DNA of 46,715 bases from Prevotella sp. (GTDB taxonomy: Bacteria > Bacteroidota > Bacteroidia > Bacteroidales > Bacteroidaceae). Position numbers and translations under genes: made by a program. Below are positions 1 through 15,754 of the stretch, piece after piece. Numbering within the stretch: position 1 is the first letter of the stretch; the number at the start of each line of letters is the position of its first letter. The notes under the pieces were generated by a model. That model worked only from the letters and a program-made list of their open reading frames with translations, made no database searches and was not told the origin of the DNA. The stretch spans positions 1-46,715 of the forward strand of contig JAGCDO010000025.1 in assembly GCA_017651265.1 (NCBI GenBank). Direction: 5' to 3'.

Positions 1-160
1 AATGGTCGAAGGAATTGACATCATCAACAACAGTACGGATTTGTCTGACGAAGGTCTGGGAAAGGAGAACAATCTCCTCTTTGAAGATGATGCCTTCGGA
101 AACATCTGGGGAGACGGGGACAGCAGCTCCAACCCCTACGACCTCTGGGGAGAGAATTAG
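1..160 (+). CDS. 3' end of small acidic Trp/Asp-rich protein (partial)
   Basis: The open frame (codons in register with position 2) enters from the left edge and ends at TAG 158-160. Its 52 visible residues align with residues 22-73 of the complete small protein at 7286-7507, with only a few substitutions (for example FGNIWGDGDSSSNPYDLWGEN against FGDIWGDTDNSSNPYDMWGEN). The ATG at position 2 is therefore internal (Met22) and the true start lies outside the window. By analogy with 7286 and 12729, a large exported protein gene should lie just upstream. No domain is recognised and the function is unknown. The coding call rests on conservation of the reading frame between two diverged DNA copies. 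Confidence 0.75.
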   Translation, partial: MVEGIDIINNSTDLSDEGLGKENNLLFEDDAFGNIWGDGDSSSNPYDLWGEN

Positions 161-757
161 GCCGAAGGCCTGAAGGCTGCAAGCAGCGTTCAAGGGCAAA
201 GCCCGTTCAAAAGCGGCTACAGCCACGTTCAAGAGCGCTGATGCGCGTTCAAGCTAAAGACGAACACGGATTGCACAGATGCAACGGATAAAATAAGACA
301 AATAGTAGTTTCTGCTATCTCTGCAATTTGGCTTCCCCTAAAGCGCCGACCGTTGGTTCTGCGGGACATAAAAAATCCGTGAGATCCGAAAGATCCGTGG
401 TCAGTAAAAAAAAGAAAGTAAATGGATAGTTTTCATTTATAGTGTTAGTATTTAGAAGTAAATAGTTTTTCATGGAAACGGGGGACGTCGTGAGACGCCT
501 CCCGCTTTTTTCGCTACGAATTAGACAAATTAGACGAATTGTCGGAGCAGTGAGCGCCAAAGATACTTGTATCAATTTGGCCGAGTCGTGACGATAATCG
601 CTGAAAGTCAATTAGGCCAAAGGGCCAAAGGATTTAATGTTTAATGTTTAATCTTTAATCTGGTAAATCCGCGGTCGCTTTAGTTCAGAAAGAAATTATC
701 ATAATTATCCCAGAAATATTATTTAATACGGAATCATAACCTTTTCCGTGTTTCCGT
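2..757. repeat. Long direct repeat, copy 1 (small-ORF 3' half plus downstream region)
   Basis: This stretch is repeated at 7350-8183. The match starts inside the small acidic ORF, runs through its stop codon and continues for about 600 nt of noncoding DNA. That DNA includes ACGGAT-type motifs (264-290, 370-402), a segment ATTTGGCTTCCCCTAAAGCG near 326-345, and a GUGA-capped hairpin at 480-511. Copy 2 has an extra block of about 95 nt just after the stop codon (around 7509-7604). I see no gene in 161-888 on either strand. Similarity returns at 785-862 against about 8625-8697. Confidence 0.85.
480..511 (+). terminator. GUGA-loop hairpin terminator (imperfect stem)
   Basis: GGGGGACGTC (480-489) pairs imperfectly with GACGCCTCCC (494-503) around a GTGA tetraloop, followed by GC and six T. 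It lies about 320 nt after the small ORF stop and is the counterpart of the perfect hairpin at 7895-7926. It probably ends the transcript of the cassette that enters from the left edge. Confidence 0.6.
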
Positions 758-888
758 CTATTTGTCCGTTTCTTCCGCTGCAAAACTACATTTTGTTCTT
801 TTGTCTAAAAACAATTATATGTTCTTATGTTATTATGTCTAATCCTTGGTCCTTTTGTCTGTAATAATGGTAGATTCTCCCTCTTTTA

Positions 889-920
889 TTTGCTACTTTC
901 ATTTGAAAAGTGTATTTTTG
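889..920 (+). promoter_or_regulatory. Bacteroidota-type promoter of the toxin-antitoxin pair
   Basis: A -33 box TTTG (889-892) is followed after 20 nt by a -7 box TATTTTTG (913-920), matching TTTG-N19-21-TAnnTTTG. The implied transcription start near 925 lies upstream of ATG 943, which supports that antitoxin start and excludes the GTG at 910. Confidence 0.7.
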
Positions 921-942
921 CAGCACGAAAATAATGTATTAT

Positions 943-1194
943 ATGGAAACACAAGATAAGAAGTACAAACAGCACGAAACGGAGCAACAAATGGCTTCCG
1001 AGCCAGTAGCCTATGCTGAGTATGGTATTCCTGAAGTTGCTATTCAAAGCATGCCTGAAGGAGTACCCCATTCTTTTGATGAAGCTATTAAAGAGATTGA
1101 AGAAGGAGAGAAAGAGTTTGAACGTGGTGAAGTGTTTACGCATCAGGAAATGATGCAAATGATCTGGGACAAGATTGAAAACTATGCAGGTTGA
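943..1194 (+). CDS. Putative antitoxin of a ParE/RelE-type module
   Basis: This 83-aa acidic protein starts METQDKKYKQHE and ends in the helix-rich GEVFTHQEMMQMIWDKIENYAG. ATG 943 is preferred because the promoter -7 box ends at 920; ATG 934, in the same frame, is the alternative. I do not recognise its DNA-binding fold from sequence. The antitoxin role is inferred from its position: short, acidic, first in the pair, with its stop (TGA 1192-1194) overlapping the toxin start by 11 nt. The usual role would be to bind and neutralise the downstream toxin and to repress the shared promoter. The pair sits alone within repeat-rich DNA, as expected for a mobile or recently gained module. Confidence 0.65.
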   Translation: METQDKKYKQHETEQQMASEPVAYAEYGIPEVAIQSMPEGVPHSFDEAIKEIEEGEKEFERGEVFTHQEMMQMIWDKIENYAG

Positions 1195-1492
1195 GTATAA
1201 TTCAAAGGCTATAAAACACATAAGCAGCACCTTCGATTACTATCTCCTAAACTATGGGAAACAAGCTTGCAAGAACCTTGCTTTGGCCATAGACAAAAAA
1301 GTTAATAGACTCGTTCGTTTCCCGGAAATTGGACACCCTGAGCCACTTTTGCGAAACAAACACATATTGTACCGCTCTATTATCATTGACAAGAACCACA
1401 AGCTTGTCTATTATATAAAAGGAAATACGATTAGAATAGCAGCTTTATGGGACATGAGGATGCATCCTAACCGATTAAGCAAGAAAATATAA
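1184..1492 (+). CDS. ParE/RelE-family toxin
   Basis: This is a 102-aa protein. Its layout is that of the ParE/RelE toxin superfamily: an N-terminal MQVEYNSKAIKHISS strand-helix, a central helical pair with NRLVRFPEIGHPEPLL, and C-terminal strands with YRSIIIDKNHKLVYYI and IRIAALWDMRMHPNRL. The motif 'RFPEIGHPEPLLRNKHILYRSIIID..HKLVYYI' is typical of Bacteroidota plasmid-stabilisation-type members. ATG 1184 is chosen over TTG 1175 because it gives the compact overlap with the antitoxin and a standard codon. Whether it acts on gyrase (ParE-like) or on mRNA at the ribosome (RelE-like) cannot be told from sequence alone. Confidence 0.8.
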   Translation: MQVEYNSKAIKHISSTFDYYLLNYGKQACKNLALAIDKKVNRLVRFPEIGHPEPLLRNKHILYRSIIIDKNHKLVYYIKGNTIRIAALWDMRMHPNRLSKKI

Positions 1493-2242
1493 TTCTCACA
1501 CTGATAACACAGATTTCTGTGTTCCCGATATTATTGACTATTGTCTTCCTCCATCACGACTCTGCAAACCCCAAACCTGCTTGGTTCTGCTCTCGCTGCT
1601 CTGTCGGTTCCGTTTCTTCCGCTATAAAACTACATTTTGTTCAATTTGAATCAAATTCTGTTCAATGTCTCGCCGAAGGCGATCCAAAAATTAACGACCA
1701 CGGATCTACCGGATCCCACGGATAACTATACATCTTGTCTAAGGACTCTATGGACTCCAAGGACTATCCGTACAATCCGTGTCATCCGTGGTCAAGTATT
1801 TATGTGTGAGATTAATTTCCGTTATTCTGATTCTTTTGACTATCGTCTTCCTCCATCACGACTTGGCAAAGCTCAAGCCTGCTTGGTTCTGCTCTCGCTG
1901 CTCTGTCGTTTCCGCTTATTCTGTTGTGAATATAATACGACCACGGATCTACCAGATTCAACGGATATATTCCTTAGTTCTTTGGTTCCTTGGTCTTAAT
2001 TAACTTTGGTCCCTTGGTTCTTTTGTCTAATTTGTTCCAATTTCTTTTACAACCACGGATTAACCTAATCTAATGGATAAAAACAAATGACAAATTAAAG
2101 GACTTTGTGATTTCCGCATTCTTTTGTGTGACCTGATTATCCGCCTGATCAGCTCAATCCGTGCTCAGTTCCCCTTTAACCTTATTATAAAAGTGCTTCT
2201 TACTGCAAGAATATTAAAATAATATAAAAAACTCATCGATTT
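1493..2242. repeat. Noncoding mosaic of short repeats upstream of the 1613-aa protein gene
   Basis: I find no convincing gene here. The stretch holds two plus-oriented copies of a repeat containing CTTCCTCCATCACGACT...GCTTGGTTCTGCTCTCGCTG (about 1531-1645 and 1811-1998). A third plus copy lies at 8451-8625, and reverse-oriented relatives lie at 528-603 and 7930-8015. ACGGAT-type motifs occur at 1691-1725, 1766-1793, 1941-1966 and 2054-2080. Runs such as CTTTGGTTCCTTGGTC recur at 1975-2030. Short open frames covering the repeat are judged chance. Confidence 0.75.
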
Positions 2243-2275
2243 TTTGGAGTTTACAAAAAAAAATATTTATATTTG
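2243..2275 (+). promoter_or_regulatory. Promoter of the large exported protein gene
   Basis: TTTG (2243-2246), a 21-nt spacer and TATATTTG (2268-2275) match the Bacteroidota consensus. The leader to ATG 2410 is about 130 nt. It contains two small hairpins: GCCTA/TAGGC at 2288-2302 and CCCC/GGGG around 2332-2342. Confidence 0.7.
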
Positions 2276-2409
2276 CCGCCGAAATATGCCTAGACTATAG
2301 GCAAGTTTATAGCGGAACATGATCATCACCCCCCAAAAGGGGAACATCATTAACTCAGTTATTGATAATAAAAATTTAATAAGAACAACTAATAACAACT
2401 CAAAGTATT

Positions 2410-5400
2410 ATGAAGAGATTATTTACTTTAATCGCACTAGTCTGTCTGGTGGGTGTTAATCTACTGGCACAGGAAACTGTAACAATAGATTTCCGTGATT
2501 TCAGTGTTTCATATTATGGTGATTCTCAACTTGAAATTGACGAAAACGGTTATCTCGTATCCTTATCAGAGGAAGGCAAGGAAACTAGGTATTTCCCTGA
2601 GGGCAGTATTTCTGTGGAAGACCCCAATGCTTGGCAGATTGGACACGACCAAGGCCATAATAACGCTTCTTACTTACAGAGAAAAGCAAATGTCGGTGAC
2701 CAGTCTGTATTTATCCATAACTTGAATCTTGGTGACAAGGTATACTTATATGTAACCAACGACAATTGTTACAATGTATCACGTATTACCGATCTAGCAC
2801 CAAATAGAGTATTAACGTATGGCAACTTTGTTACCGTGAACGTTCCTGGCACCATGGAGATTTCCATGAGAGCAGACTATGCTGGTATAGATTATATAAG
2901 GATTGAAAAGGCAGCGCAATCGAGCAATAATAATGTTGCTGAATATACCTACGACCCTGGCATTGAGTCGTACGACTTATATTGGGTTAATAGGTATGTT
3001 AATAATAGTGATATTGATTATACTGACTTGTACGCATCTTTCCCTCTGGACTACAATGACTTAGATGCTATTATCATTACGAACCTGACTGATGGTACAC
3101 CGCTGAACAAGCGAATCGCTATCAGCGAAGCGAAAGATGGTGATAACACTTTAAGGCCATGGACTTTTACTTGGCGAAATGAATTACAAAACCAAAACGG
3201 AAATGAAAGCCAAGGTTTACTGAACCGTTGGTCATGGCACAACTTCAGTATATGTGATCTGAAAGCAGGCGACCGTGTGGTTCTTACCCTCTACAATCGA
3301 GATTATAATGGTGAAGGTAATGTTGGTCATGCCAAGATCGGAAGTAAACAGAATGGTGGTAATGTAGATGGAACGATTGAATACCGTGGCTGTGCAGGTT
3401 TCATGGATCTCAACGACAACGGTGTTCAAGATGAAGGTGAACCAACTATATCAGCAGGAATGAACCTCGAAGGTAATGAAACACAGTATCATGATCTTAT
3501 AACCTATCCTATTACAGTGACGGAAGACGGACACCTGGACTTTGCCTTTGATGAAAACGTACTTCTTAAAAAAGTAGAGATCTATTCTGACCATAAGGCA
3601 TCGATGGTTCACAAATACAACGGTTCTCTTGAGGCTGGCTATACATCCTATTTCAATATTACCGGTCAGTTAGAGACTAAACAGCATGTTATTCCCGGTG
3701 GCTTGCAGGTGCATGTGGGTAATGATGATGAGGATCAGCACGCCACTGTGGTGGCTTCTGCCTACACACCAGTGGTAAGTATCTACGACGAGAACCACTA
3801 CAAGATCGCAAGGAACGACAATAGTACGGGACTTTTCAGTGGAGATCTCACCACCAACCTTCCTACTAATGGAACCTACTACAAATTTGTTCCTGAAATA
3901 AGTGGTTCCATGGATATTAAATTCTATACATCGAGTATCAATTACCTATGGTATGGAGCGGATGGTCTCTACCGCGACGGCTCTAATACTTCCAATGAGT
4001 ATGCAAGTAATGCATCATGTCCGTACTATCTGATAGATGTTGATGAAAATGGAATTACGAGCATTAAGAAACAGTTTTTCTATAATGGTAATCAGTTGAT
4101 AGATAATGATAATTGGAGTAATATCAACGTAGTAGCCGGACACACCTACTACTTGTTTGGTGGCTGGCAAAATGGGGCAACGGCATCCAACTACACCGAC
4201 TGGGTTCCTAATGAAAATAAAAAATCCCGGTATTTCGCAGGTGTACCCAAGTTGCTTGAAGTAACCTACAGAGCTGAAAAGTTGGTGTATCCGCTTGCCA
4301 AGTGGGTGCCGGAAAGAACTGGTGCTGATGACGATCTTGCCACTGTTAAGGGCTACAGTAATGTGAAAGTGAAGAAGATGTCGGACAATATCCAGTCTTG
4401 TGAACCATACCTTCAAGATGGGAAATTAAAGATCAAAAACATAGTGCTTAAGGATAATAGTATTGGCGGCGGTGTCATCCTTATCGAGGTGACAGATAAC
4501 CCCAACAGCTATAACCGTGCCGACCCCGTATTCGCACTTACCGTGGCTTACGATGCCTCATATAACTCAGCTTCTAACATACCTGAGGCACAAAGAGGTC
4601 ATACGTGGGACTTCTCAACCAAACAGCTGAACGGACTGCAGTGGAAGAACACCTATAGCACCTATGCTGTCGTGACTCCGTTCGGTACCAGCGATGATCC
4701 GAATTCACTTCTCAACGACGAAATGAACTGGACAGACAGTCACGGAATTCAAAACTCCGACTGGACATTCAACTACCGCTTAAGGACTCAAGATAACAAC
4801 TACGACCCGCAGTTCGTGAACAACTACGACATGGTTGGCGACAACGCTGATATGGTGTGGGACTCTGAGGGTATGGTCATTCTGGCCAACTTCACCAAGA
4901 ACAGTATCTATAACGAATTTACTAATAGCAATAATAATGAAGTTCAGCACACCGAGGAAACCGACCCCGACCGTTACGTGGGTATTTGGCCTAACGCTGG
5001 TGATGGTCTCGAGAGTGAGTTCTTGATTCCATGGCTTAACAAGGACGACCGCGTGATTATATACATGGGTAGCGGTACAGGTCCTGAAAGTGAGACAAAA
5101 GAGATGGTGTTCAACATCACCAATGCCCTCGATGCTGAGCATAATGAAATCTCTGCAACAGATAACTATGTGGCAGGCGGTTCCCATTGGGATGGTGCTA
5201 CGGGTGATCCATACTACCGTGGCTGCTACCACTTCTTCGCAAAAGAAGATGGCGACATGCGTTTCAAACTGGTGGGCGGTACTATGTGCAAGATCTACAA
5301 GATCCAGATCTACCACGGTGACCGCATCAACACCAATGAAATCAAGGGTGCAACTGCTACCGACAAGTTCCTGCTGTGGAGCAGGGATAACGATCCCAAC

Positions 5401-7251
5401 GACAACACAGGTAAAGACATCGGTCCCACCTACAACTGGACGCTGAACTACTTCGGTAAGGATCAGAAAATTGCAGACGGATCCAATGGCGTGAAGAACG
5501 GAATCGTTGAGCTTCAAGCTACCAAGATCAAGAGTGGAGCCAACATTAATGACAATGGGTTCACCACCAGTAATGTTACCGATCCGACTCAACCACTATA
5601 CAACACCTTCACCTATCAGCATGACTATGGTCAGATAGGTACATTCCGTATGCGTGGCAAGGACATGGAGAAGAACATGAAGTACGTGGCCGACTACGGT
5701 GACCATAACGTGACCGTTGCCTATCAGGAGACACAGACGTATCCCTACACTTGGGACTTCATGGATATGATTGGCTATAGTGTTTCTCACTTCTCTAATG
5801 AAGATGCAATTGGTATAGGATCTTCCATTACAACTAATAAACCCACCTGGTTTATCAGCGATGATGATTGGAATCTATCTTATGAGAAGAGTTCAACAGA
5901 CCTCTCTCTCTGGGAAAAACTTTCCGGTAATAATCCCGCCTACGACCTGCGCCTGAACAGTCAGAAGGAACAAGGAGATGGTGATCTGAAGGAGAAAGAC
6001 AATATCTTTGAGACGGCCAAGGACATTCCTCTCGGCGGTGGTAACCAGGTATGGGCAAACGGAGCTGTGGTTCCCGAAACACAAGGTCTCTGGTTCTACT
6101 CATATAATAACAACCAGAACAATGGTAAATGGGGTATTAACAGCGACGGTATGGATTTTGGCGGAACCAGTAAAGATGTTCTGAAGGTAGTGGTTCCGAA
6201 TGTTCCTGCTAATGCGGCAGTATATCTGCGCATGGTGAAGAATAGAGAAGTAGGTCCTGATTATGCCTATGAGTTCAAGGGTGGAAATACAAATCTCGAA
6301 ACCTACGGACCCATTCAGGTTGATGGAACCAACGAGTATATCCTGGCCATCATGAATAAGGGAACAGCCAAGCGGCACCTCACCCTCTCCATTGCCGGCT
6401 ATAGACTGAAGAAGCTCGCTGTATCTACCGATCCTAAGAAAATTGGTTCTACCGGCTACGCTACCGAGAGTCGTGCAGAGGGAGTTGGTATCGACCATAA
6501 CCTGACCGCCTACCTGACTGGTAAGGATATCAAGGCTTATACGGGTGCCATCAATGCTGATAACACCCAGCTCGTGATGACGCAGTTCGGTGCTACCGAG
6601 ACGAGTGCCAAGATTCTGCCTGCTGCTACTGACGGCGACAGCAACGGTTGCATCCTGCATCACAGCGACGGGGCTGTAAGCATTCTCAACGGCGGTTTCC
6701 ATGTGTTCGTTCCAGATATGCACGACAAGATCAATTCCGACAGAATGGTGAACACCACTACTAATGTGATGAAGTCGTTCCTGCCCGGAACCACCGATGC
6801 CTCCACCAAGGGTTTTCTGGGTGCAACAGCTGGTGATAACACGAACCTGGTGCTGACTGCAAAGAAGTACAGCTATGGTACAAATGGCTCGACGGTTCAA
6901 TCGGGTACTGAAGTGAACTTCGTACGTGTCGATCCTAACGGTAATAATAATCAAGGTGCTTCACTGAGCTACTGCAGCGCCTACCTGCAGCTACCTACCA
7001 GCGTGATGGTTCCTCTTACTGGCAGTAGTAACGGTGGTAACGCTAAGCTGAGCATTGTGTTCGTGGATGAACTGTTCGGCGAGGTTAGCCAGGGTATTGC
7101 AACAGGAATTGTAGATCTGTCGCCTGCTACCGGCAACAACCCAGCTGCAATGGAGGCCGAGTGGTATAACCTGAGCGGTCAGAAACTCAACGGACAGCCC
7201 ACCGAGAAGGGCATGTACATCGTGAACGGTAAGAAAGTGTTAGTGAAATAA
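2410..7251 (+). CDS. Very large exported protein with Por-type C-terminal sorting-like tail
   Basis: This 1613-aa protein starts with a signal peptide (MKRLFTLIALVCLVGVNLLAQ, cleavage expected near residue 21). Its C-terminus (about residues 1580-1613) reads WYNLSGQKLNGQ..EKGMYIVNGKKVLVK, the short beta-rich tail common on Prevotella surface proteins and often annotated as a type IX secretion target region. The body is rich in Asn, Asp, Gly and Tyr and shows repeated beta-sandwich-like modules with TWDFSTKQ (around residue 731) and YTWDFMDM (around residue 1112). I see no catalytic motif. It has its own promoter, and the small acidic ORF follows 34 nt after the stop. An adhesin, matrix or glycan-binding role is plausible but unproven. 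Long antisense open frames inside it are shadows. Confidence 0.9.
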   Translation: MKRLFTLIALVCLVGVNLLAQETVTIDFRDFSVSYYGDSQLEIDENGYLVSLSEEGKETRYFPEGSISVEDPNAWQIGHDQGHNNASYLQRKANVGDQSVFIHNLNLGDKVYLYVTNDNCYNVSRITDLAPNRVLTYGNFVTVNVPGTMEISMRADYAGIDYIRIEKAAQSSNNNVAEYTYDPGIESYDLYWVNRYVNNSDIDYTDLYASFPLDYNDLDAIIITNLTDGTPLNKRIAISEAKDGDNTLRPWTFTWRNELQNQNGNESQGLLNRWSWHNFSICDLKAGDRVVLTLYNRDYNGEGNVGHAKIGSKQNGGNVDGTIEYRGCAGFMDLNDNGVQDEGEPTISAGMNLEGNETQYHDLITYPITVTEDGHLDFAFDENVLLKKVEIYSDHKASMVHKYNGSLEAGYTSYFNITGQLETKQHVIPGGLQVHVGNDDEDQHATVVASAYTPVVSIYDENHYKIARNDNSTGLFSGDLTTNLPTNGTYYKFVPEISGSMDIKFYTSSINYLWYGADGLYRDGSNTSNEYASNASCPYYLIDVDENGITSIKKQFFYNGNQLIDNDNWSNINVVAGHTYYLFGGWQNGATASNYTDWVPNENKKSRYFAGVPKLLEVTYRAEKLVYPLAKWVPERTGADDDLATVKGYSNVKVKKMSDNIQSCEPYLQDGKLKIKNIVLKDNSIGGGVILIEVTDNPNSYNRADPVFALTVAYDASYNSASNIPEAQRGHTWDFSTKQLNGLQWKNTYSTYAVVTPFGTSDDPNSLLNDEMNWTDSHGIQNSDWTFNYRLRTQDNNYDPQFVNNYDMVGDNADMVWDSEGMVILANFTKNSIYNEFTNSNNNEVQHTEETDPDRYVGIWPNAGDGLESEFLIPWLNKDDRVIIYMGSGTGPESETKEMVFNITNALDAEHNEISATDNYVAGGSHWDGATGDPYYRGCYHFFAKEDGDMRFKLVGGTMCKIYKIQIYHGDRINTNEIKGATATDKFLLWSRDNDPNDNTGKDIGPTYNWTLNYFGKDQKIADGSNGVKNGIVELQATKIKSGANINDNGFTTSNVTDPTQPLYNTFTYQHDYGQIGTFRMRGKDMEKNMKYVADYGDHNVTVAYQETQTYPYTWDFMDMIGYSVSHFSNEDAIGIGSSITTNKPTWFISDDDWNLSYEKSSTDLSLWEKLSGNNPAYDLRLNSQKEQGDGDLKEKDNIFETAKDIPLGGGNQVWANGAVVPETQGLWFYSYNNNQNNGKWGINSDGMDFGGTSKDVLKVVVPNVPANAAVYLRMVKNREVGPDYAYEFKGGNTNLETYGPIQVDGTNEYILAIMNKGTAKRHLTLSIAGYRLKKLAVSTDPKKIGSTGYATESRAEGVGIDHNLTAYLTGKDIKAYTGAINADNTQLVMTQFGATETSAKILPAATDGDSNGCILHHSDGAVSILNGGFHVFVPDMHDKINSDRMVNTTTNVMKSFLPGTTDASTKGFLGATAGDNTNLVLTAKKYSYGTNGSTVQSGTEVNFVRVDPNGNNNQGASLSYCSAYLQLPTSVMVPLTGSSNGGNAKLSIVFVDELFGEVSQGIATGIVDLSPATGNNPAAMEAEWYNLSGQKLNGQPTEKGMYIVNGKKVLVK

Positions 7252-7285
7252 GTAACGGTATAAATATAAGGAAAGGAACAGAACA

Positions 7286-7507
7286 ATGAAAAAGATATAT
7301 TTAAGTCCCGTTACTGAAACGGTCAACGTGAAACTCTTCGGGTCTGTAATGGACGAAGGCATTGACATCATCAACAACAGTACGGATGTGTCTGACGAAG
7401 GTCTGGGAAAGGAGAACAACCTCCTCTTTGAAGATGATGCCTTCGGAGACATCTGGGGAGACACAGACAACAGCTCCAACCCCTACGACATGTGGGGAGA
7501 GAATTAG
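7286..7507 (+). CDS. Small acidic Trp/Asp-rich protein paired with the upstream large protein
   Basis: This 73-aa protein begins MKKIYLSPVTETVNVKLFGSV and ends DNSSNPYDMWGEN. The basic N-terminus with PVTE, followed by a strongly acidic tail ending in Trp-Gly-Glu-Asn, resembles the separate small protein at 12729-12968 (MKKYVKPVTELFRTDMENFV ... WGDLWDWD). Its residues 22-73 are nearly repeated at the window start. It has no convincing signal peptide or known domain. Its place 34 nt behind a large exported protein gene, with A/G-rich sequence before the ATG, implies co-transcription. Possible roles are a chaperone or secretion partner, or a secreted peptide precursor; none can be shown here. 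Confidence 0.85.
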   Translation: MKKIYLSPVTETVNVKLFGSVMDEGIDIINNSTDVSDEGLGKENNLLFEDDAFGDIWGDTDNSSNPYDMWGEN

Positions 7508-7508
7508 G

Positions 7509-7604
7509 CTACGCCAGTTGACAGTTCTTCGCGAAGCGAAGCGGCAGAGCCGAGCGGACAATTGACAGTTGACAGTTGTTCGCAAAGTGAAGCGGCAGAG
7601 CCGA
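7509..7604. repeat. Two tandem copies of a TTGACAGTT/AAGCGGCAGAGCCGAG element
   Basis: Two copies of a roughly 45-nt element (about 7518-7563 and 7568-7604) contain TTGACAGTT, TTCGC, an AGCGAAGCGG-like core and GCAGAGCCGAG. A third copy follows the metF stop codon at 25777-25825. The core TTCGCGAAGCGAAG can fold back on itself. It is a dispersed intergenic repeat absent from copy 1 of the long direct repeat. Confidence 0.7.
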
Positions 7605-7894
7605 GAGGCCGAAGGCTGCAAGCAGCGTTCAAGGGCAAAGCCCGTTCAAAAGCGCTGATGCGCGTTCAAGTCAAAGACGAACACGGATTGCACAGATGCA
7701 ACGGATAAAATAAGACAAATAGTAGTTTCTGCTATCTCTGCAATTTGGCTTCCCCTAAAGCGCCGACCGTTGGTTCTGCGGGACATAAAAATCCGTAAGA
7801 TCCGAAAGATCCGTGGTCAGTAATAAAAGAAAGTAAATGGATAGTTTTCATTTATAGTGTTAGTATTTAGAAGTAAATAGTTTTTCATGGAAGT

Positions 7895-7926
7895 GGGGAC
7901 GTCGTGATGACGTCCCCCGCTTTTTT
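7895..7926 (+). terminator. Strong hairpin terminator of the large/small protein unit
   Basis: GGGGACGTC (7895-7903) pairs perfectly with GACGTCCCC (7909-7917) around GTGAT, followed by CGC and six T (7921-7926). It lies about 390 nt after the small ORF stop, implying an unusually long 3' untranslated region. It is the counterpart of the imperfect hairpin at 480-511. Confidence 0.75.
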
Positions 7927-8183
7927 CGCTACGAATTAGACTAATTAGACGAATTGTCGGAGCAGTGAGCGCCAAAGATACTTGTATCAATTTGGCCGAG
8001 TCGTGACGATAATCGCTGAAAGTCAATTAGGCCAAAGGGCCAAAGGATTTAATGTTTAATCTTTAATCTGGTAAATTCGTGGTCGCTTTAGTTCAGAAAG
8101 AAATTATCATAATTATCATAATTATCCCAGAAATATTATTTAATACGGAATACATAGCCTTTTCCGTGTTTCCGATATTATTC

Positions 8184-8750
8184 CGTTTCTTCCGATGTAT
8201 AACTACATTTTGTTCAATTTGGATCAAATTCTGTTCAATTCTTCTTTTGATCGCCTGCGGCGAGACATCTTACAAAATCAGATACAAAATCATACAAATT
8301 TCTGCTATATCTGCCATTTCTGCGGGACTGATAAAAACCTCACACAGATCTTAACCATCTCACAGAATTATTATTTCCCACAGAACCAACGGTCGACGCT
8401 TTAGGGGAAGCCAAATCGCAGAAACATGATTCAACTGATAATTTCCGTGTTTCCGTTCATTTTGACTATCGTCTTCCTCCATCACGACTTGGCAAAGTTC
8501 AAGCCTGCTTGGTTCTGCTCTCGCTGCTCTGTCGTTTCCGTTTATTCCGCTGTGAATATAATACGACCACGGATCACTCAGATCAAACGGATCTATCTCT
8601 TAGTTCTTTGGTTCCTTGGTCTTTAATTATGTTCTTTTGTCTAAAACAATTATATGTCCTTTTGTTATTATGTCTAATCCTTAGTTCTTTTGTCTGTTAA
8701 ATAATCTTAAACAACACACCCTCTTGCATGCATATTCAAAGAATATGTTG
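8184..8750. repeat. Mosaic of inverted and direct repeats before the LRR protein gene
   Basis: No gene is seen. 8377-8417 is the inverted copy of 7743-7782 (and of about 325-365), with two mismatches over about 40 nt. 8451-8625 is a plus-oriented copy of the CCATCACGACT...CTCGCTGCTC repeat. 8297-8327 carries TTCTGC-AT motifs like those near 307 and 7724. 8566-8592 is an ACGGAT-type motif. 8625-8697 repeats 785-862. Confidence 0.8.
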
Positions 8751-8758
8751 TATATTTG
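8751..8758 (+). promoter_or_regulatory. -7 promoter box for the LRR protein gene
   Basis: TATATTTG matches TAnnTTTG and is followed by GCTGCG, a context common at Bacteroidota start sites. No good TTTG lies 19-21 nt upstream (only CTTG at about 24 nt), so the -33 box is weak. The resulting leader to ATG 9032 is about 265 nt and contains a short open frame (8847-8966) and a GGCGG/CCGCC hairpin near 8943-8955. Confidence 0.5.
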
Positions 8759-9031
8759 CTGCGATAAATAATAGTATTGAAAGCTCGACAAGATATAGGG
8801 AGCAACTACAAACAGACAACTACAACATAATTAATTTAGAAATATAATGACGGATTTACTACTACTGTATGATAACTTGACCACCCGTACCATACACTCA
8901 CGGTTCCGGTCACGTATAGACCCTTCTCCCCCACTCTACGGAGGCGGCATCCGCCATGTATCCTAATCTATCGTACACAAATAAGCATATATTTAACAGA
9001 ATAAAAATAAAAACAAATAATTAACTCCAAA

Positions 9032-12000
9032 ATGAAAAGAATTTTACTACTAATGTGGGTGCTTTTGCTGGGCATCAGTGTTCAAGCACAGACAACCATT
9101 AATGTCAGCAGTGATACCCCCCTTGCAAATCAGCTTGCTAACCTTAGCACCATTCAAAGCTCCTTGATTATCACAGGAACGCTAACTGCCGAGGATTTCG
9201 AAGCACTGAACTCCAACACCTATTCTCAACTGGCCAGCGTCACTAAGTTGGATCTTAGCGGAGCAACCGTTGCGAGCATCTCCGACATGTCGGGTATGAA
9301 CCTGAGCGCGATGGAATACCTGCAGCTGCCCAATGGGATGACCAGTGCCGATGATGTGGAAGCCATGGCAAACCTGCATTCAAGTTCCAAAAATACTGCG
9401 CTGAAGATGGCGGGAGCACAAAGTAACACTGTTACCTTCAATGGTGTGACAACCAATAATAAAGAGGTGGCGGTCTATTCATTTGTACCCAATAGCGCAG
9501 GTAAATACAAGAATGCATTCCCCATCTTAGAAGGTGCCAAAAGTGTTCGTATGGCAGGAGCCTTCGGAAATAACGACCTGGTTGATCACTCAGATAACAA
9601 TAAGCCAATCTTCGGATATAATGGTCCTGTGGCTCTATGGGATTTCACTGGTGCATCATTTACCGACTGCACAATACCCAGTTATACATTTCAATACCAA
9701 ACAGAAAGTGGAGACAAGCGCCATTTTGACCTTGATGATCCCTTCAAGGAAACAGAAGGCTTTACAAGTCTTCCCGACAACTATCAAACCAATTCTTTCT
9801 ACTATTTCTGCGAAGCCGATATGTCAACCTATGTCGTAGATATAAAGCTTCCAACAGGAATCGAATCCCTGCCACCCAAAAGCCTTTTAAGATTAGGCTC
9901 TCAAAACAAGGCGAACTACATGTCTGTTAATGGGATGAGTGATGATGATTTCGCAACAGCCTTTAGTTATGTGGAGAATGGTCAGACAAAAGTTCCAGAA
10001 TATGGCCCCATCGAGACCTTGGTCATTCCCAATAACTACGAGATTCTCGACCATGAGTGCGCGCTTGAAGCAAGAATTCAACATCTGTATATTGGCAATG
10101 GCGTTAAGGAGATTAGAGGTGGCGCATTTGTACATAGCGAAACGTTAGAGGACCTGGATTTTGCTGCAGGTATTAGTGATTGCTATATTGGTAATCTCGC
10201 ATTCGGTGAATGTAAGAGTATGAAGCACATTGCTCTTGCAGAGGGTATCGTTTCCTTAGGTGCCAACGCATTCTCTAACAGTCAGCACTTGGAGTCCATC
10301 CGACTGCCTGAGTCTTTGATATACATAGGTAACGAAGCATTCAACAACTGTCTGGCTTTGAACAGTATTACTATTCCGAGCAATGTGGAGAAAATCGGAC
10401 AGAAAGCATTCTGCTTATGTCCTTTCACAGACATTTTCCTTACCACCACCAATCCTGACAAGATTCCGTATATATGGTCGGCTGGTTTATTCGGCGATAA
10501 TAGTGGTGGCAGTTTCGATGGCAATGCCTCGTTCGGTAGCGGTCATTTCTGGGGCTGGGGAGGCTTTTCCGACGATTTTGGTACTAAAGTAGAAGGTATG
10601 TCTTGGGACGAAGCGGCAGCTTGGTATTATACACATGCCAATGGTATTCCTGTACTCCACTACCCTACCCAGCTTGCAGACAAGGTAAAGGCGGCCATCT
10701 CTGCTAATTATGATGCCACCTCATCCGATGGCTATGGACTGCCTGCCAACCGTAGTGACATGTCGAGTCGTTCGGCAGATCAGATTATGAGTAATTATCC
10801 CGATGTTACAGATCTCTTAGACGGCACCAATGGTAAATATACTCAAAACGGATGGGCACAGTTTGTGCTGATGAAGGAATATGTGCCAGGCGAAGAAGAT
10901 GTGGTGTTCACCAAGGAATACAGCGACGTATGGTACACCATGTGCTTCCCCTTCGACCTGACCGACGAACAGTTGGCTGCTGCATTCAATGAGACGTTCA
11001 ATATTGCCGACTTCAGTGGTGTGGAAGTAGTGGAAAAGACTGAGACCGACCCGCTGAAGTTAATACTCCATTTCAACAAAGTGGCTGTTACTTATTACAA
11101 AGATACAAATGATAAGATTTACTATCGCTTGTGTAATGATGGGCAAACTATCTATAGAGGAGAACCAGGGCAGACTGTTTGGAGGGAGCAGCATGGTAAC
11201 TTTGAGTATAATGTTTATGTAGATCCTGATAATCCTGGTGTTCAGTATCACCATGTGCATCCTATAGGCGGCAAATTAGACCAAAACAAGACCAAGACAT
11301 TTGCCATTAGTACTGAAGCTGGTCAAGGAAATGCAGAAGAAGCTATTCTCATCGACGGTATCCTTGCCGAGGCTGGTCATCCTTATATGATTCACCCTGC
11401 TATCGGCGTGAATCCTGGTCAGCCCAAGAAGGCTTGTAACATGGCTGGTATCTCCTGGAAAAACAGTCCAAATGAAAAGGAACAATCTTCTGCCGACTAT
11501 ACGCTTTCAGGAGACCCATCTGTAGATGACTACCGAGACTGGTTATATAATCACATGGCGCGCACCGTTGATCTGGGTCACGAAAGCACGCAGCAGGAGA
11601 AGTGGGATAATTACGATCAGGCAAACTATACAAGTCTTGGTTATGCAGGTAACACCTATACCTTTAAGGGTAATCATAGGGAGTTAAAAAAGGGTATTGA
11701 CGTGTCATCGTTACCTGCGAAGCCAGTTCAGATTGATAAGCCGAAAGAACCTGTAGCACCACCAGAACCTGAAGTGGTGCCAGAGCCTTCGACTGTAGAG
11801 GATCCAGGAATCACGCTGTCGGATGAGGATATCGCTCTTTATAAAAATCAGTTAACAGACGGTACTGACCAGTATAATCGTGGTATATGGTTCGATTATA
11901 AAGGTACTGAAATTACGGCTGAATATAATGATAATTCGGCTCAGTGGAATGCTTATAATAGCAAGTGCCATCTTATTCAGAACACCATTTCTGGTTTAAA

Positions 12001-12712
12001 TCCTTATGGTGACGACGCAACTAAGGAATATACTTTCAACTACTGCAAGAACCTCTTCAACAACTACAGCAAGGTGGCAGCATACCAACAGTATCTGAAA
12101 GATTATGCCAAGTATCAACAGTATCTAGCCGACTTGGAGGCATACCAGAATTATGATCCCGCACAGGCACAAATAGATTACGAAAATGCTTTGAATCAAT
12201 ATAATAACTATCCCACTGAATACAACAATTGGAAGAGTCAAGTTGGAGCACTGGGTGCTTTCGTAGTCATCCCGGAATACGCCTACTTCTTAGGTACGCC
12301 AGCCGGGGCAATCTATCCCAAGTACTTCCGTGAGAGGGAAAGTAATCCTAAACGTTCTACTGGACTTTGGACCCAGTATTCTGCAATTATCATTCCGAAC
12401 GCTACAGCGTTAGCTGGACTTGAAACAGATCTTGGCGGTGTAACCAGCTCAAGCGGTACTGGTAGCACACCAGGAGCTAAGAGTCATGACATTGCCTTCG
12501 ACGAGGATTATTTCTTCATCAACGACACTCCACAGGGCATCGCTACCCTCATCGAGAAGATCGAGAAGGAAGAGGGTAAGGCTCCCGAAGTGGAATATAT
12601 GGATATCGTGGTGAGCATCGACGGTAAGATCGTCAGTCGCGACAAGACCACCTTCGAAGGACTGCCCAAGGGCGTATATATCATCAATGGTAAGAAGTAT
12701 TACGTAAAGTAA
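9032..12712 (+). CDS. BspA-type leucine-rich-repeat exported protein
   Basis: This 1226-aa protein has a signal peptide (MKRILLLMWVLLLGISVQAQ). Residues about 330-480 contain LRR_5/BspA-type repeats such as IVSLGANAFSNSQHLESIRL and LIYIGNEAFNNCLALNSITI. A Pro/Glu-rich linker (about 898-926) and a Tyr/Gln-rich, probably helical segment with repeated YQQYL-type units (about 1018-1080) follow. The C-terminus (about 1190-1226) ends GLPKGVYIINGKKYYVK, the same sorting-like tail as the protein at 2410. BspA-family proteins in oral and gut Bacteroidota bind host matrix or other cells; an adhesin role here is inferred. The small protein at 12729 follows 16 nt downstream. Confidence 0.92.
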   Translation: MKRILLLMWVLLLGISVQAQTTINVSSDTPLANQLANLSTIQSSLIITGTLTAEDFEALNSNTYSQLASVTKLDLSGATVASISDMSGMNLSAMEYLQLPNGMTSADDVEAMANLHSSSKNTALKMAGAQSNTVTFNGVTTNNKEVAVYSFVPNSAGKYKNAFPILEGAKSVRMAGAFGNNDLVDHSDNNKPIFGYNGPVALWDFTGASFTDCTIPSYTFQYQTESGDKRHFDLDDPFKETEGFTSLPDNYQTNSFYYFCEADMSTYVVDIKLPTGIESLPPKSLLRLGSQNKANYMSVNGMSDDDFATAFSYVENGQTKVPEYGPIETLVIPNNYEILDHECALEARIQHLYIGNGVKEIRGGAFVHSETLEDLDFAAGISDCYIGNLAFGECKSMKHIALAEGIVSLGANAFSNSQHLESIRLPESLIYIGNEAFNNCLALNSITIPSNVEKIGQKAFCLCPFTDIFLTTTNPDKIPYIWSAGLFGDNSGGSFDGNASFGSGHFWGWGGFSDDFGTKVEGMSWDEAAAWYYTHANGIPVLHYPTQLADKVKAAISANYDATSSDGYGLPANRSDMSSRSADQIMSNYPDVTDLLDGTNGKYTQNGWAQFVLMKEYVPGEEDVVFTKEYSDVWYTMCFPFDLTDEQLAAAFNETFNIADFSGVEVVEKTETDPLKLILHFNKVAVTYYKDTNDKIYYRLCNDGQTIYRGEPGQTVWREQHGNFEYNVYVDPDNPGVQYHHVHPIGGKLDQNKTKTFAISTEAGQGNAEEAILIDGILAEAGHPYMIHPAIGVNPGQPKKACNMAGISWKNSPNEKEQSSADYTLSGDPSVDDYRDWLYNHMARTVDLGHESTQQEKWDNYDQANYTSLGYAGNTYTFKGNHRELKKGIDVSSLPAKPVQIDKPKEPVAPPEPEVVPEPSTVEDPGITLSDEDIALYKNQLTDGTDQYNRGIWFDYKGTEITAEYNDNSAQWNAYNSKCHLIQNTISGLNPYGDDATKEYTFNYCKNLFNNYSKVAAYQQYLKDYAKYQQYLADLEAYQNYDPAQAQIDYENALNQYNNYPTEYNNWKSQVGALGAFVVIPEYAYFLGTPAGAIYPKYFRERESNPKRSTGLWTQYSAIIIPNATALAGLETDLGGVTSSSGTGSTPGAKSHDIAFDEDYFFINDTPQGIATLIEKIEKEEGKAPEVEYMDIVVSIDGKIVSRDKTTFEGLPKGVYIINGKKYYVK

Positions 12713-12728
12713 GGAAGGAGGACCTACC

Positions 12729-12968
12729 ATGAAGAAATATGTAAAACCTGTAACGGAGCTTTTCCGCACAGATATGGAGAACTTCGTATGCGCTAGTCCT
12801 ACTGGTGAACGTGAAGGACAATGGGGTGCTGGACAATCGGGGTCCGAACATGCTGATCCCAACTGGGATAATGAGGGCTACAATTATCCTACAGAGCCCA
12901 TTGAAGACGATTATGGCTTGATCGACTCTCAGGGCAAGGCCTGGGGCGATCTCTGGGACTGGGATTAA
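12729..12968 (+). CDS. Small acidic Trp-rich protein paired with the LRR protein
   Basis: This 79-aa protein begins MKKYVKPVTELFRTDMENFV and ends GKAWGDLWDWD. A GGAGG-like ribosome site lies 7 nt before the ATG (GGAGGACCTACC), stronger than is usual for this phylum. The MKK-aromatic-xxPxTE start and the acidic W-containing end match the design of the protein at 7286, but the middle differs (EGQWGAGQSGSEHADPNW). Spacing of 16 nt to the LRR gene and the terminator at 13032 place both in one transcript. No known domain is recognised and the function is unknown. Many Bacteroidota loci have such MKKxYxxPxxE small proteins; their role is generally undefined. Confidence 0.85.
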   Translation: MKKYVKPVTELFRTDMENFVCASPTGEREGQWGAGQSGSEHADPNWDNEGYNYPTEPIEDDYGLIDSQGKAWGDLWDWD

Positions 12969-13031
12969 GATGTAAGAAATATGAATTGTAAACCTTAATA
13001 TCCCAACAAACTTGAGTTAATTATGTTACAG

Positions 13032-13062
13032 AAAGGGCGAGCCGTGAGGCCCGCCCTTTTTT
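13032..13062 (+). terminator. Hairpin terminator of the LRR/small protein unit
   Basis: AAAGGGCG (13032-13039) pairs with CGCCCTTT (13052-13059), with an inner GCC-GTGA-GGC stem-loop and a T-run to 13062. It is another GUGA-capped terminator. Confidence 0.8.
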
Positions 13063-13317
13063 GTTATGTATACATGTTTGCCGCAATTAAACGATTACCG
13101 ATTGCAAGCATCTAACTTATAAAAGCCCATCTTTGCCCGGCAAATCCAAAGAATGCATCAAGGAAAATATACGTGGAAACAGGGGAAAATGGGGCAAAAC
13201 AAGTGGAAAAGTTGTGCAGATGTAGCACAGAGGGGTTTCATTTGTAGAAAATCGACAGTTTACACTAAAAATAAAGTTGCTGTAACAAGAAATGAAGAAT
13301 AGTTTGGAAAATGTTGC
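13063..13317. other. Noncoding stretch, nothing recognised
   Basis: AT-rich DNA between the LRR unit terminator and the next promoter. I see no gene, no repeat shared with the neighbouring intergenic regions and no clear binding site. Confidence 0.5.
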
Positions 13318-13325
13318 TATCTTTG
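13318..13325 (+). promoter_or_regulatory. -7 promoter box upstream of the TPR-HTH regulator
   Basis: TATCTTTG followed by GCAGCGG matches the Bacteroidota -7 box and start context. The nearest TTTG (13303-13306) is only 11 nt upstream, so the -33 element is not convincing. The start codon at 13559 is about 230 nt away, beyond a terminator-like hairpin. Confidence 0.5.
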
Positions 13326-13451
13326 CAGCGGAATTCTAAGAGAAGAGTTCAATATGAAGATTGTTTAGCAGTTAGTTATATATGTTATGTTTTGGTTTTT
13401 AAATTATATTTAGAAGTTTTTATTAGGTTATTTTGTTAGTTATGTTGTATC

Positions 13452-13484
13452 CAGCGTGGGCCGTGAGGTCGACGCTGTTTTTTT
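13452..13484 (+). terminator. Terminator-like hairpin in the leader of the TPR-HTH gene
   Basis: CAGCGT (13452-13457) pairs with ACGCTG (13472-13477) around GGCC-GTGA-GGTC, followed by seven T (13478-13484). It lies between the promoter (13318) and ATG 13559. It could be an attenuator, or the end of an independent short RNA of about 150 nt. Confidence 0.6.
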
Positions 13485-13558
13485 CGACTTTTTACGATGG
13501 GCCTCGTGCCTGTCACAACTATTTACGCAAATATTACCATTATATAAATAAATGTAAG

Positions 13559-15127
13559 ATGAATAAGAAAAGATTGTTTATGACATTGTTTGCAGCGGCA
13601 ACACTATTCCTCCTCGTGGGCTGTAGGACCGACCGCGAACAACTCACGGAGATCAACCGTCTTTTGAACGTCAACAAGCTCGACTCGGCACAGATGTGTC
13701 TGAACCGCATCACCCTCTCCGACCTGTCGGAAGAGGACAAGCCACTGTACCTTCTGTCCACAGTCAAGCTGAACCACCTGCAGTACCGCCCCATCGTCTC
13801 CGACACGATCATCCGCTATTGCATCGACGAGTTCACGAGAACGGGCGATAAGGAGCGACTGGCTGAGAGTTTGTATTACCAGGCTGTGACTGATTATGAG
13901 GACGGTCATGTGGCAAAAGCCTTCGAGGAGATGAAGAAGGCCGAGAACGAAGCCCAGGGCATTTCTGACCTCACCGTGCGCCACAAGATCATCGAGTGCC
14001 TCACCGACTGGAACATGTCCGAGCACCAGTACCAGCTGGCCATGGAATACGGTCGCCAGAACCTCACCCTGTCGTCCATGTCGGGTAACAACAACTGGAT
14101 TGCCTATGCTCTGGTGTTCATCTCCCAGATCCATGCCGGCTTGGGCCAACGCGACAGCGCCAGTCACTACCTCAACAAGTGCATCTCGTATATCTCTGAG
14201 GTGCCCGATTCCCAGCGCGTGGATTTCTATAACTACATCGCCGCCCTCACCATGAAAGACGATCTCCCCACCGCGCAGTCGTATGCCATGAAGAGTAACG
14301 CCATCCGTCCCAACAGCGTGGGGTATATCACGCTGGCGCAGATTCACCACCGCGAGGGCAACCAAGCAGCCGCCGACAGTCTGTGTTCAAAGGCCTACGA
14401 TCTGGCCAAAACCTCAGAAGAGCGCATCTATGTACTGCAAACTACCATGAAACTTTTTGAGTTGCAGAAACGTTACGACCGCGCTTATTTCACCTCCAGA
14501 ACCCTGATGGATGACAAGAGTAACGAGGCACGGCTCCGCGAAGAGCACGATGTGCGCAATGTGCAGAACTCGTTCGACAACAAGATCAAGGACCTGCGTT
14601 TCCGTCAGACCATCTTCTACGCCTTTCTCCTCGCCGTCCTCCTTGCCCTCATCTTCCTCGCCCGCAGCATCCAGCACCGATTCCGTCTGAACAAAAAGAG
14701 TAGTCAGATCATGCAGAACCAGCTGCTCATAAACCACTACGAGGAGAAGATTCACCAGATGGAACAGTCGGACAAGGGTAAGAGCGAAGAATTACAAGCT
14801 CTCAACAAGGAGTTAGCAGAAGTCAGGAAGCGTCAAACTCTCCAGCTTGCAAAAGGCAAACAATATTACGACCATATTATCAATGGCGGAACGGCCTATC
14901 AGTGGAACAAACCCGAATATACCGATTTTATCGAGTATTACAAGGTTCTCGACATCGCTTTTGTCTCGAAATTGGAAAAAGAGTATAAAAACTTATCAGA
15001 GCGTCAGAAATTATACCTGATTTTGTTTGAGATGGGGAAGGATAGTATGGAGGTAAAAAGAATTTTGGGAGTAGCCGATGGAACGATGAGATCGATAAAA
15101 TCAAGAGTAAAATCTCAAAAACTATAG
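13559..15127 (+). CDS. TPR lipoprotein sensor with transmembrane helix and C-terminal HTH-like domain
   Basis: This is a 522-aa protein. ATG 13559 gives a lipoprotein signal (MNKKRLFMTLFAAATLFLLVGC, lipobox Cys22), so the longer frame from 13433 is rejected. Residues about 30-340 hold TPR-like helical repeats (SLYYQAVTDYEDGHVAKAFEEMKKAENEA; AEYGRQNL region). A transmembrane helix lies at about 350-372 (TIFYAFLLAVLLALIFL). A coiled coil follows (about 385-440). The last 60 residues (LSERQKLYLILFEMGKDS then VKRILGVADGTMRSIKSRVK) look like a LuxR/sigma-4-type helix-turn-helix. This TPR-TM-HTH layout is a known Bacteroidota regulator type, sensing in the periplasm and binding DNA at the membrane. 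Its target is unknown; the next gene is a candidate. Confidence 0.85.
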   Translation: MNKKRLFMTLFAAATLFLLVGCRTDREQLTEINRLLNVNKLDSAQMCLNRITLSDLSEEDKPLYLLSTVKLNHLQYRPIVSDTIIRYCIDEFTRTGDKERLAESLYYQAVTDYEDGHVAKAFEEMKKAENEAQGISDLTVRHKIIECLTDWNMSEHQYQLAMEYGRQNLTLSSMSGNNNWIAYALVFISQIHAGLGQRDSASHYLNKCISYISEVPDSQRVDFYNYIAALTMKDDLPTAQSYAMKSNAIRPNSVGYITLAQIHHREGNQAAADSLCSKAYDLAKTSEERIYVLQTTMKLFELQKRYDRAYFTSRTLMDDKSNEARLREEHDVRNVQNSFDNKIKDLRFRQTIFYAFLLAVLLALIFLARSIQHRFRLNKKSSQIMQNQLLINHYEEKIHQMEQSDKGKSEELQALNKELAEVRKRQTLQLAKGKQYYDHIINGGTAYQWNKPEYTDFIEYYKVLDIAFVSKLEKEYKNLSERQKLYLILFEMGKDSMEVKRILGVADGTMRSIKSRVKSQKL

Positions 15128-15241
15128 GCTTACACGTTGCATATCCATGATTTATTCGCATGGAATACAAACGAAACATCTTAGTTTAGAGCAAATTACA
15201 CAATATTACCATGCAACACCTCATTAAAAAAAGATGAGGAA

Positions 15242-15276
15242 TTTGTTGCATGGTATTATTATTGGTTGTACTTTTG
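15242..15276 (+). promoter_or_regulatory. Promoter of the DUF3244-like gene
   Basis: The -7 box TACTTTTG (15269-15276) is followed by TCGGCG. TTTG at 15242-15245 lies 23 nt upstream, a little long. ATG 15323 lies about 40 nt beyond the predicted start site. Confidence 0.5.
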
Positions 15277-15322
15277 TCGGCGTAAACTATAAACCTACTT
15301 TTATTATTAATTAATTATTGTA

Positions 15323-15712
15323 ATGAAAAGAACAATTGTATGTGCTGCTGTGGCAGCTATGATTGCTTTCCCAATGAGTGCATTGGCAAGCGCACCCTTT
15401 ATGGGTCCTACTGATGGTGATGATGAAATACCTATTATTGTGCACGGTCCGCACAGAGGACCGCGCATCGCACCTGCGGTAAGAGTTGAATTTAACGAGG
15501 ATGCCGGAACGGTAGTTGTAACATTCAACAAAGCTGCAACTGACGTGACAATGTTAGTTTGCAAGAACGACGTAGGAGTAATGGACTACTATATAGGAGA
15601 CACTTCGGCAGGAAGTGAATACGAAATTCCGCTTTATGACGAGGACACAGAGGGAATGGTTCTCTATTTCGTTTCTGCAGGAGAGGTCTTTTTTGTCAAT
15701 TCCTTGGATTAA
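15323..15712 (+). CDS. Small secreted DUF3244-like protein
   Basis: This 129-aa protein has a signal peptide (MKRTIVCAAVAAMIAFPMSALA). The rest is predicted beta-rich: RVEFNEDAGTVVVTFNKAAT, VGVMDYYIGDTSAG, then EIPLYDEDTEGMVLYFVSAGEVFFVNSL. The pattern of an Arg-containing N-terminal strand, a D-x-G-x-V-x-Y strand and a final 'G..FFV' strand resembles the DUF3244 family of small secreted Bacteroidota proteins. It is monocistronic, with its own promoter and a strong terminator at 15755. It lies directly behind the TPR-HTH regulator, which might control it. Biochemical function is unknown. Confidence 0.75.
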   Translation: MKRTIVCAAVAAMIAFPMSALASAPFMGPTDGDDEIPIIVHGPHRGPRIAPAVRVEFNEDAGTVVVTFNKAATDVTMLVCKNDVGVMDYYIGDTSAGSEYEIPLYDEDTEGMVLYFVSAGEVFFVNSLD

Positions 15713-15754
15713 ATTCTATTAAAAACACCAGCATCCTCAATGGATGAACGCGGG

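Follow-up and report, generated by a model that had tools for sequence, protein, structure and literature searches.

In the pathway to linear polyphosphorylated peptides (LPPs), as set out in the accessible text of Popov et al. 2026 (PMC13381572), three kinds of protein hold the leader of the precursor, cut the leader off and phosphorylate Ser3 of the core, which lies 18 positions after a Tyr of the leader. The same text describes YxxP as the motif by which the discrete RREs (recognition elements of ribosomally synthesized and post-translationally modified peptides, RiPPs) of lasso and LPP systems hold their leaders, and names N33, I56, Y60, V67 and D70 of LppB as the residues that contact it. 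LPPs are called restricted to Bacillota in its discussion, and neither 'Bacteroid' nor 'Prevotella' occurs in its main text. Here we analyse a contig of Prevotella sp. (JAGCDO010000025.1; G000:C22 in our designation), the whole of which (46,715 bases) is the window, window position 1 being contig position 1. It carries two cassettes in which the gene of a large exported protein is followed by that of a small acidic one, and these small partners are probably precursor peptides of an LPP-like, RiPP-type system in Bacteroidota.

No account of such a system in Bacteroidota was found in the literature searched, which took in few subscription papers and no bioRxiv preprints. The accessible portions of a survey of Bacteroidales RiPPs (PMC10352776), a survey of RREs (PMC12710340) and a survey of rumen lasso peptides (PMC7533575) contain no description of one, and those of the last contain no occurrence of Prevotella. 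For the rumen genomes analysed in PMC7533575, the same portions report HprK at about 58%, PqqD at 46% and nucleotidyltransferase at 30%.

Small proteins paired with surface-protein genes

The cassettes comprise the following features (window coordinates, strand):

2–160 (+): 3′ part of a third small precursor-like gene, truncated by the contig end; 88% identity over 52 aa to the 73-aa copy
2410–7251 (+): large exported partner of 1613 aa; open reading frame (ORF) with no Pfam match at E ≤ 1, whose relatives keep the small subtype
7147–7248 (+): short C-terminal tail of the 1613-aa protein, resembling a C-terminal domain (CTD) of the type IX secretion system (T9SS); found by the tail query and not recognised by TIGR04183
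7286–7507 (+): small precursor-like protein of 73 aa; ORF, profile E 1.5e-18, itself among the 11 profile rows
7298–7309 (+): YxxP motif (YLSP) of the 73-aa protein, read from the sequence
9032–12712 (+): large exported partner of 1226 aa with BspA-type leucine-rich repeats; ORF, PF13306 E 3.9e-25
12641–12709 (+): short C-terminal tail of the 1226-aa protein; weak match to the tail query (E 0.22), not recognised by TIGR04183
12729–12968 (+): small precursor-like protein of 79 aa; ORF, profile E 2.9e-17, itself among the 11 profile rows
12738–12749 (+): YxxP motif (YVKP) of the 79-aa protein, read from the sequence
12795–12797 (+): Ser 19 residues past the motif Tyr of the 79-aa protein, a candidate phosphorylation site by comparison with LPP core Ser3 at 18 positions

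Both large proteins have a signal-peptide-like start (by eye) and end in the pattern GxYI(V/I)NGKKxxVK, the 1613-aa protein with GMYIVNGKKVLVK and the 1226-aa protein with GVYIINGKKYYVK; similarity between the two is confined to about the last 88 residues (BLASTP E 2e-4). The small genes follow after gaps of 34 nt (1613-aa/73-aa pair) and 16 nt (1226-aa/79-aa pair). Despite the lack of significant pairwise similarity between the 73-aa and 79-aa proteins (E 0.065), both are united by profile A1, an alignment of 11 small proteins from the own genome (G000; 3.16 Mb, 69 contigs) in which Tyr and Pro are invariant. The small proteins of the window pair matched no Pfam or NCBIfam family at E ≤ 1; among 53 members, NCBIfam gave none at E ≤ 0.1 and Pfam three single weak matches. 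Since the window starts at contig position 1, the small-protein tail that opens it belongs to a gene truncated there by the end of the contig. The DNA of this gene and pieces of its 3′ flank recur at 7348–8697, and the contig probably ends within the gene because the intergenic DNA around the cassettes is duplicated (1–862 versus 7348–8697 and 1513–1997 versus 8439–8623, pieces 81–98% identical in each case). The initial annotation, which had noted two large exported proteins each trailed by a small acidic partner and a third small-protein tail at the window's start, was thus correct on both counts. The order is kept in the nearest named relative found, the Prevotella metagenome-assembled genome contig JAEEWT010000012.1, with a 1613-aa-type gene (66% identity over 1340 aa), a small gene (protein 76% identical) and, last, the gene of a large exported relative of the 1226-aa protein.

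Genome-wide in the own genome, A1 detected the 11 proteins and the truncated copy at E ≤ 1.1e-7, plus a single weaker match at C44:28513 (E 0.058) that does not stand behind a tail gene. This 39-aa YxxP ORF (L091, G000:C44:28513–28602, minus strand) has a leader-like start and is possibly a lone or decayed precursor. Of the 301 genomes sampled from the family, 127 contain a small-protein match at E ≤ 1e-3. An A1 search of the order gave matches in 5/344 genomes, where five loci of G932 and G752 lie behind tail genes and the G726 locus does not (both by eye). With 7 own-genome matches to the 12 of A1, the broad profile A5 (53 rows) was the less sensitive of the two; it found 3/345 genomes of the phylum, namely the own genome, G302, in which three loci stand before lipoprotein-like genes, and G522. 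The G522 match was rejected by eye as a chance one, falling where a longer enzyme-like frame begins.

The gene neighbours were scored for 98 members from other genomes, which are top-scoring matches rather than a random draw (29 loci, 59 of 60 fetched places and 10 loci; L170 and L181, the same places as L182 and L129, were removed before this count). A tail gene lies upstream of 70 of them at E < 0.05 (69 at E < 0.01, 66 at E < 0.001), against 2/204 background ORFs at each threshold, and the intervening gap runs from −4 to 363 nt with a median of 28.5 (≤ 60 nt in 52/70). Fifteen members (16 by eye, adding L187) stand instead 16–51 nt before a gene with a lipoprotein-like start, which in G140 matches the fimbrillin-like PF13149; by these two rules, no member has both a tail gene upstream and a lipoprotein gene downstream. 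The remainder of the 28 members without a tail consists of variant tails by eye (L111, L118 and L127), places within about 350 nt of a contig end (L136, L145, L158, L165 and L172) and other contexts (L095, L131, L146 and L153). At L153 (G132:C33) the precursor-like ORF lies 28 nt before an exported protein without a lipobox, a third type of neighbour. Values of dN/dS, the ratio of nonsynonymous to synonymous substitution rates, are 0.09–0.48 in 25 of 26 close pairs, which are not all independent, and undefined in one, so the small genes are real and under selection. A dedicated small partner conserved in plan had been proposed for this DNA, to be checked by profiling it across genomes and scoring the upstream gene for the tail, and to be refuted by an absence of purifying selection; the proposal is upheld by 70/98 versus 2/204, by YxxP in every member and by these dN/dS values.

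The members share a sequence plan. N-terminal YxxP occurs in 98/98 members and in 11/11 of the own genome, a uniformity partly built in by the invariant Tyr and Pro of the profile. Counting from that Tyr, Ser is found at +18 to +20 in 92/98 members (Ser rate at flanking positions, 4–9%), Glu at +6 in 59 and L, I or M at +16 in 88. An acidic, Gly-rich linker separates the Ser region from a Trp-rich end, with Trp within the last 12 residues in 96/98 and WxxxW near the end in 47/98 (shuffles: mean 1.0, maximum 4); this terminal motif is often W-G/D-N/D-L/I-W, WGNLW being the commonest form. Median length is 58 residues and median isoelectric point 4.4. The succession of leader, Ser, linker and terminal motif looks like the plan of a RiPP precursor rather than that of an escort.

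The large partners are more constrained than the initial annotation allowed in stating that they change completely. In L241, L242 and L192 the large protein is related to the 1613-aa one (66, 29 and 29% identity) and is each time accompanied by the same small subtype; in these comparisons small proteins of the KENN type go with large proteins of the 1613-aa kind. Elsewhere in the own genome, one small protein has a CotH-kinase-like large partner (L198:319–3282, G000:C60) with a lamin-tail domain. A 34-aa tail query matched at least 80 places in the own genome, the weakest at E near 0.9, and a complete 47–84-aa YxxP ORF lies 3–54 nt downstream at 11 of the 80, all of which were examined; at tail place C58:9143 a stop falls inside the tail, and the region past the true gene end is therefore outside this survey. 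The tail model was built from 79 own-genome tails. SprA (TIGR04189) is present in the own genome, over cut-off or at E 0. TIGR04183 gives 22 matches there at E ≤ 10, 8 of them above cut-off; neither large window protein matches it in that search or in the NCBIfam scan at E ≤ 1. Weak matches to TIGR04183 (E 0.07–1.7) do overlap four of the 80 short tails, but such overlaps prove little because the model at E ≤ 10 also fires in 13/14 control genomes. Judged by its sequence, the short tail is CTD-like and not a proven CTD.

The enzyme block and its probable link to the precursors

Far from the cassettes, the own genome carries a contiguous minus-strand block of kinase, peptidase and RRE genes (G000:C8:6884–8578), resembling the core enzyme types of the Bacillota LPPs. 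The RRE is of the PqqD type (C8:6884–7156, minus strand; PF05402, 56.4 bits against a cut-off of 23.4) and is preceded on its strand by the genes of an S24/S26-like peptidase (161 aa) and a kinase-like protein (300 aa). Directly upstream of the kinase gene (L210 8585–9052, minus strand) is one for a 155-aa exported-looking protein; matches to this protein also adjoin the block in L214 and L221, which belong to the same genus. Among the 301 family genomes, 262 have PqqD-type RREs, mostly with one or two matches each. We compared 22 distinct RRE loci, comprising the ten top RRE matches and fourteen chosen loci (two places being represented twice; no random draw). Kinase, peptidase and RRE are contiguous in 14 of them, the own locus included; in four the same parts are reordered or have other genes interposed, and in another four the RRE, a nucleoside triphosphate (NTP) transferase and the kinase lie among glycosyltransferase- and capsule-export-like genes. 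Nineteen of 20 RRE-less genomes are also without the kinase, so the enzymes go together.

When the RRE profile was compared with the PDB, it matched TfuB1 (E 6e-8), TbiB1 (6e-5), PbaB1 (2e-4) and LppB (0.017). Five of its seven invariant columns (N35, L60, Y64, A71 and D74) align with LppB N33, I56, Y60, V67 and D70, the YxxP-contacting residues, with LppB numbering matched by hand on the printed alignment. The peptidase matches PF00717 at 24.1 bits (cut-off 23.3), and its Ser40, His78 and Asp93 are invariant in 19 rows, with a His–Asp spacing of 15 versus 25 in LppS; its structural model is S24-type, Foldseek placing LexA first and signal peptidases lower. The kinase model (predicted local distance difference test score 93.7) has the PEPCK/HprK fold, with PEPCK ranking first in Foldseek (9.7e-8) and HprK (1knx) at 1.7e-6, and its P-loop is invariant. 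Weak matches to TIGR04352 (E 2.8e-4, 20 of 200 bits) and TIGR04249 (E 1.7e-5, 24 of 125 bits) fall below the curated cut-offs. The kinase profile retrieved only ABC transporters from the PDB sequences, and among the 50 matches listed by VIA-align there was no HprK, all being PEPCK or without such a label.

Linkage of precursors to these enzymes is found in relatives. A precursor lies within 7 kb of an RRE, an NTP transferase and a kinase in G140, G036, G154 and G013, four genomes without detected SprA in which the linked precursor is the only one detected and is followed by a lipoprotein-like gene. Longer YxxP ORFs (four in G182 and two in G249) share a locus with RRE, peptidase, kinase-like and NTP-transferase genes, together with radical-SAM-like and ABC-transporter-like genes named by eye; an NTP transferase is thus present in all six genomes. 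When 1306 small ORFs from 24 RRE loci were scanned as a control, five matched the precursor model at E < 1e-7, namely the four linked precursors and one (L214) behind a tail gene, and the four G182 ORFs scored weakly (E 0.01–0.36). The G182 and G249 loci (L223 1737–17979 and L222) are themselves RiPP-like, with two RREs, two radical-SAM-like genes and capsule export genes (names partly by eye), and the G182 YxxP ORFs encode 129–141 aa.

Comparison at this level establishes the pairing, the selection, the precursor-like plan, the enzyme set, the YxxP-contact residues and the linkage in relatives. If the small proteins are LPP-like precursors, the leader would dock as a β-strand in the RRE, the kinase would phosphorylate the Ser and the peptidase would cut a few residues before it, releasing the acidic, Trp-tailed core. 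Our favoured guess is that the peptide, once released, works at the cell surface on or together with its partner, the surface protein encoded in the same operon. Many scattered precursor genes would be served by one central enzyme set, each of them beside a surface-protein gene that lies upstream if it encodes tail-type cargo and downstream if it encodes a lipoprotein. A more specific version is tentative, and we hold it with well under even confidence: one RRE–peptidase–kinase set may mature a dozen or so different Trp-tailed peptides, each of which has a surface protein of its own encoded alongside. The modified peptide may then be a tag, ligand or capping group specific to that protein at the cell surface, and tail-type cargo and fimbrillin-like proteins would bear a post-translational layer undescribed in the literature searched.

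Competing readings

Several observations weigh against an LPP-like system, and some of them favour a different explanation, in which the block acts on some other substrate and the small proteins form an unrelated family of acidic interaction or regulatory peptides with a convergent YxxP. No precursor gene lies at the own-genome block (locus L210). The association of precursor and RRE in the family is not significant (RRE in 116/127 precursor-positive versus 146/174 other genomes, p 0.08), because the RRE is so common, and 11/127 precursor-positive genomes are without RRE, ten of these also without the kinase. Eight of the 11 are 63–86% complete; G067 (94%), G079 (93%) and G142 (95%, kinase present) are fairly complete and RRE-less all the same. 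We nevertheless consider a separate substrate unlikely, given the precursor–RRE linkage in four genomes, the YxxP ORFs inside two enzyme clusters, the conservation of YxxP-contact residues in the RRE and a control scan in which four of the five strong matches were the linked precursors. Further adverse points concern the precursors and the locus. In the own genome, Ser stands at +18 to +20 in only 5/11 members, at +21 in two and at +22 in one, and no Ser is found close to the expected position in the 73-aa protein of the window or in its relatives at C49 and C2:50999; the own 18-kb locus contains no NTP transferase by tblastn and no exporter by eye. Because of the RRE-less precursor genomes, the Ser-less copies and the absence of NTP transferase and exporter at the own block, we do not claim membership of the LPP class; our claim is that the system works like LPP.

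Alternatively, the small protein might escort, chaperone or anchor the large exported one and resemble a RiPP leader only incidentally. The tight gene pairing fits such a role, as do the joint divergence of pair members and the co-occurrence of precursor and SprA, the latter being found in 116/127 precursor-positive versus 117/174 other genomes (odds ratio 5.1, p 3.6e-7; 301 family genomes, kinship ignored). However, 15–16 of 98 members precede lipoprotein genes, five of the 16 in genomes without detected SprA, and escort or anchoring of T9SS cargo is disfavoured for this reason; no more than two candidates were scored in each genome by the SprA search, and a genome called negative, for example G010 with its 37 TIGR04183 matches, may therefore possess SprA after all. 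The partner's presence at only 11/80 own-genome tail places and the occurrence of precursors near RRE genes in relatives also count against it, leaving this role about as improbable as the separate substrate. Of the roles that the initial annotation had offered, a secreted signal comes nearest to the LPP-like reading, and escort and anchoring have lost ground. Slightly less probable again is another RRE-using RiPP class, either a lasso peptide or a product in which a radical SAM enzyme cross-links the C-terminal Trp motif (W-x-N/D). By E-value the RRE is closest to the lasso RREs TfuB1 and TbiB1, 77 Trp residues among the 98 members are followed at the second position by Asn or Asp, giving an end that we take to resemble cyclophane motifs, and the G182 and G249 clusters contain radical-SAM-like genes by eye. 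At the own block, by contrast, no radical SAM enzyme or lasso cyclase was seen by eye (no genome-wide search was made), and a kinase with an S24/S26-like peptidase fits LPP better.

Wider context and known systems

Other genes of the window lie around and beyond the cassettes. A ParE/YoeB-like toxin gene (1175–1492, PF05016) sits within 910–1492, between two of the repeat blocks, and a 94-aa ORF that overlaps it from upstream could encode its antitoxin. A hybrid two-component system protein with Reg_prop propeller, histidine kinase, receiver and AraC domains is encoded at 16111–20121, followed by PIG-L and CE2/GDSL esterase genes, and a minus-strand cell-shape cluster at 28691–34410 encodes RodA/FtsW, a PBP2-like transpeptidase, MreC and MreB. 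An Rfam search of 1–16200 gave no match. A promoter and terminator scan was not used, as it returned 35 promoter-like sites versus 28.6 (standard deviation 5.3) in shuffled sequence and 5 terminator-like sites versus 9.7.

The analysis provides a testable biochemical hypothesis for a widespread family of small proteins encoded beside surface-protein genes. If it is true, LPP-like RiPPs extend from Bacillota to Bacteroidota in a layout of one enzyme set and many precursors, and RiPP chemistry is tied to surface proteins. As the RRE is present in 262/301 sampled family genomes, the system would be a common trait and no odd cluster, and RiPP mining that looks for precursors adjoining their enzymes would miss the scattered layout.

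Among known systems, the T9SS type A C-terminal sorting domain (TIGR04183) shares with the tails the GxYI..GKK..VK ending, and SprA is in the genome; the tails here, at about 30 aa, are far shorter. The HprK-related and ScmC kinases (TIGR04352 and TIGR04249) have the same general fold as HprK and match the kinase weakly, although the scores are far under both curated cut-offs and Foldseek puts PEPCK first. The lasso B1 proteins TfuB1, TbiB1 and PbaB1 share the RRE fold family and YxxP/WxxP leader recognition; lasso systems differ in that no cyclase or B2 peptidase was seen by eye near the own block (no genome-wide search was made). LPP systems, as far as the accessible text of PMC13381572 describes them, are alike in having a YxxP leader, a discrete RRE, an HprK-like kinase and a conserved Ser about 18 residues past the Tyr, and in the capsule-type loci of some relatives; their SpI-like peptidase may correspond to the S24/S26-like one here. 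LPP systems differ from the own block, which is without an NTP transferase and, by eye, an MsbA-like exporter, and from precursors that here bear a C-terminal Trp motif; the Bacillota precursors lie inside their cluster, whereas those described here are scattered through the genome and paired with surface-protein genes.

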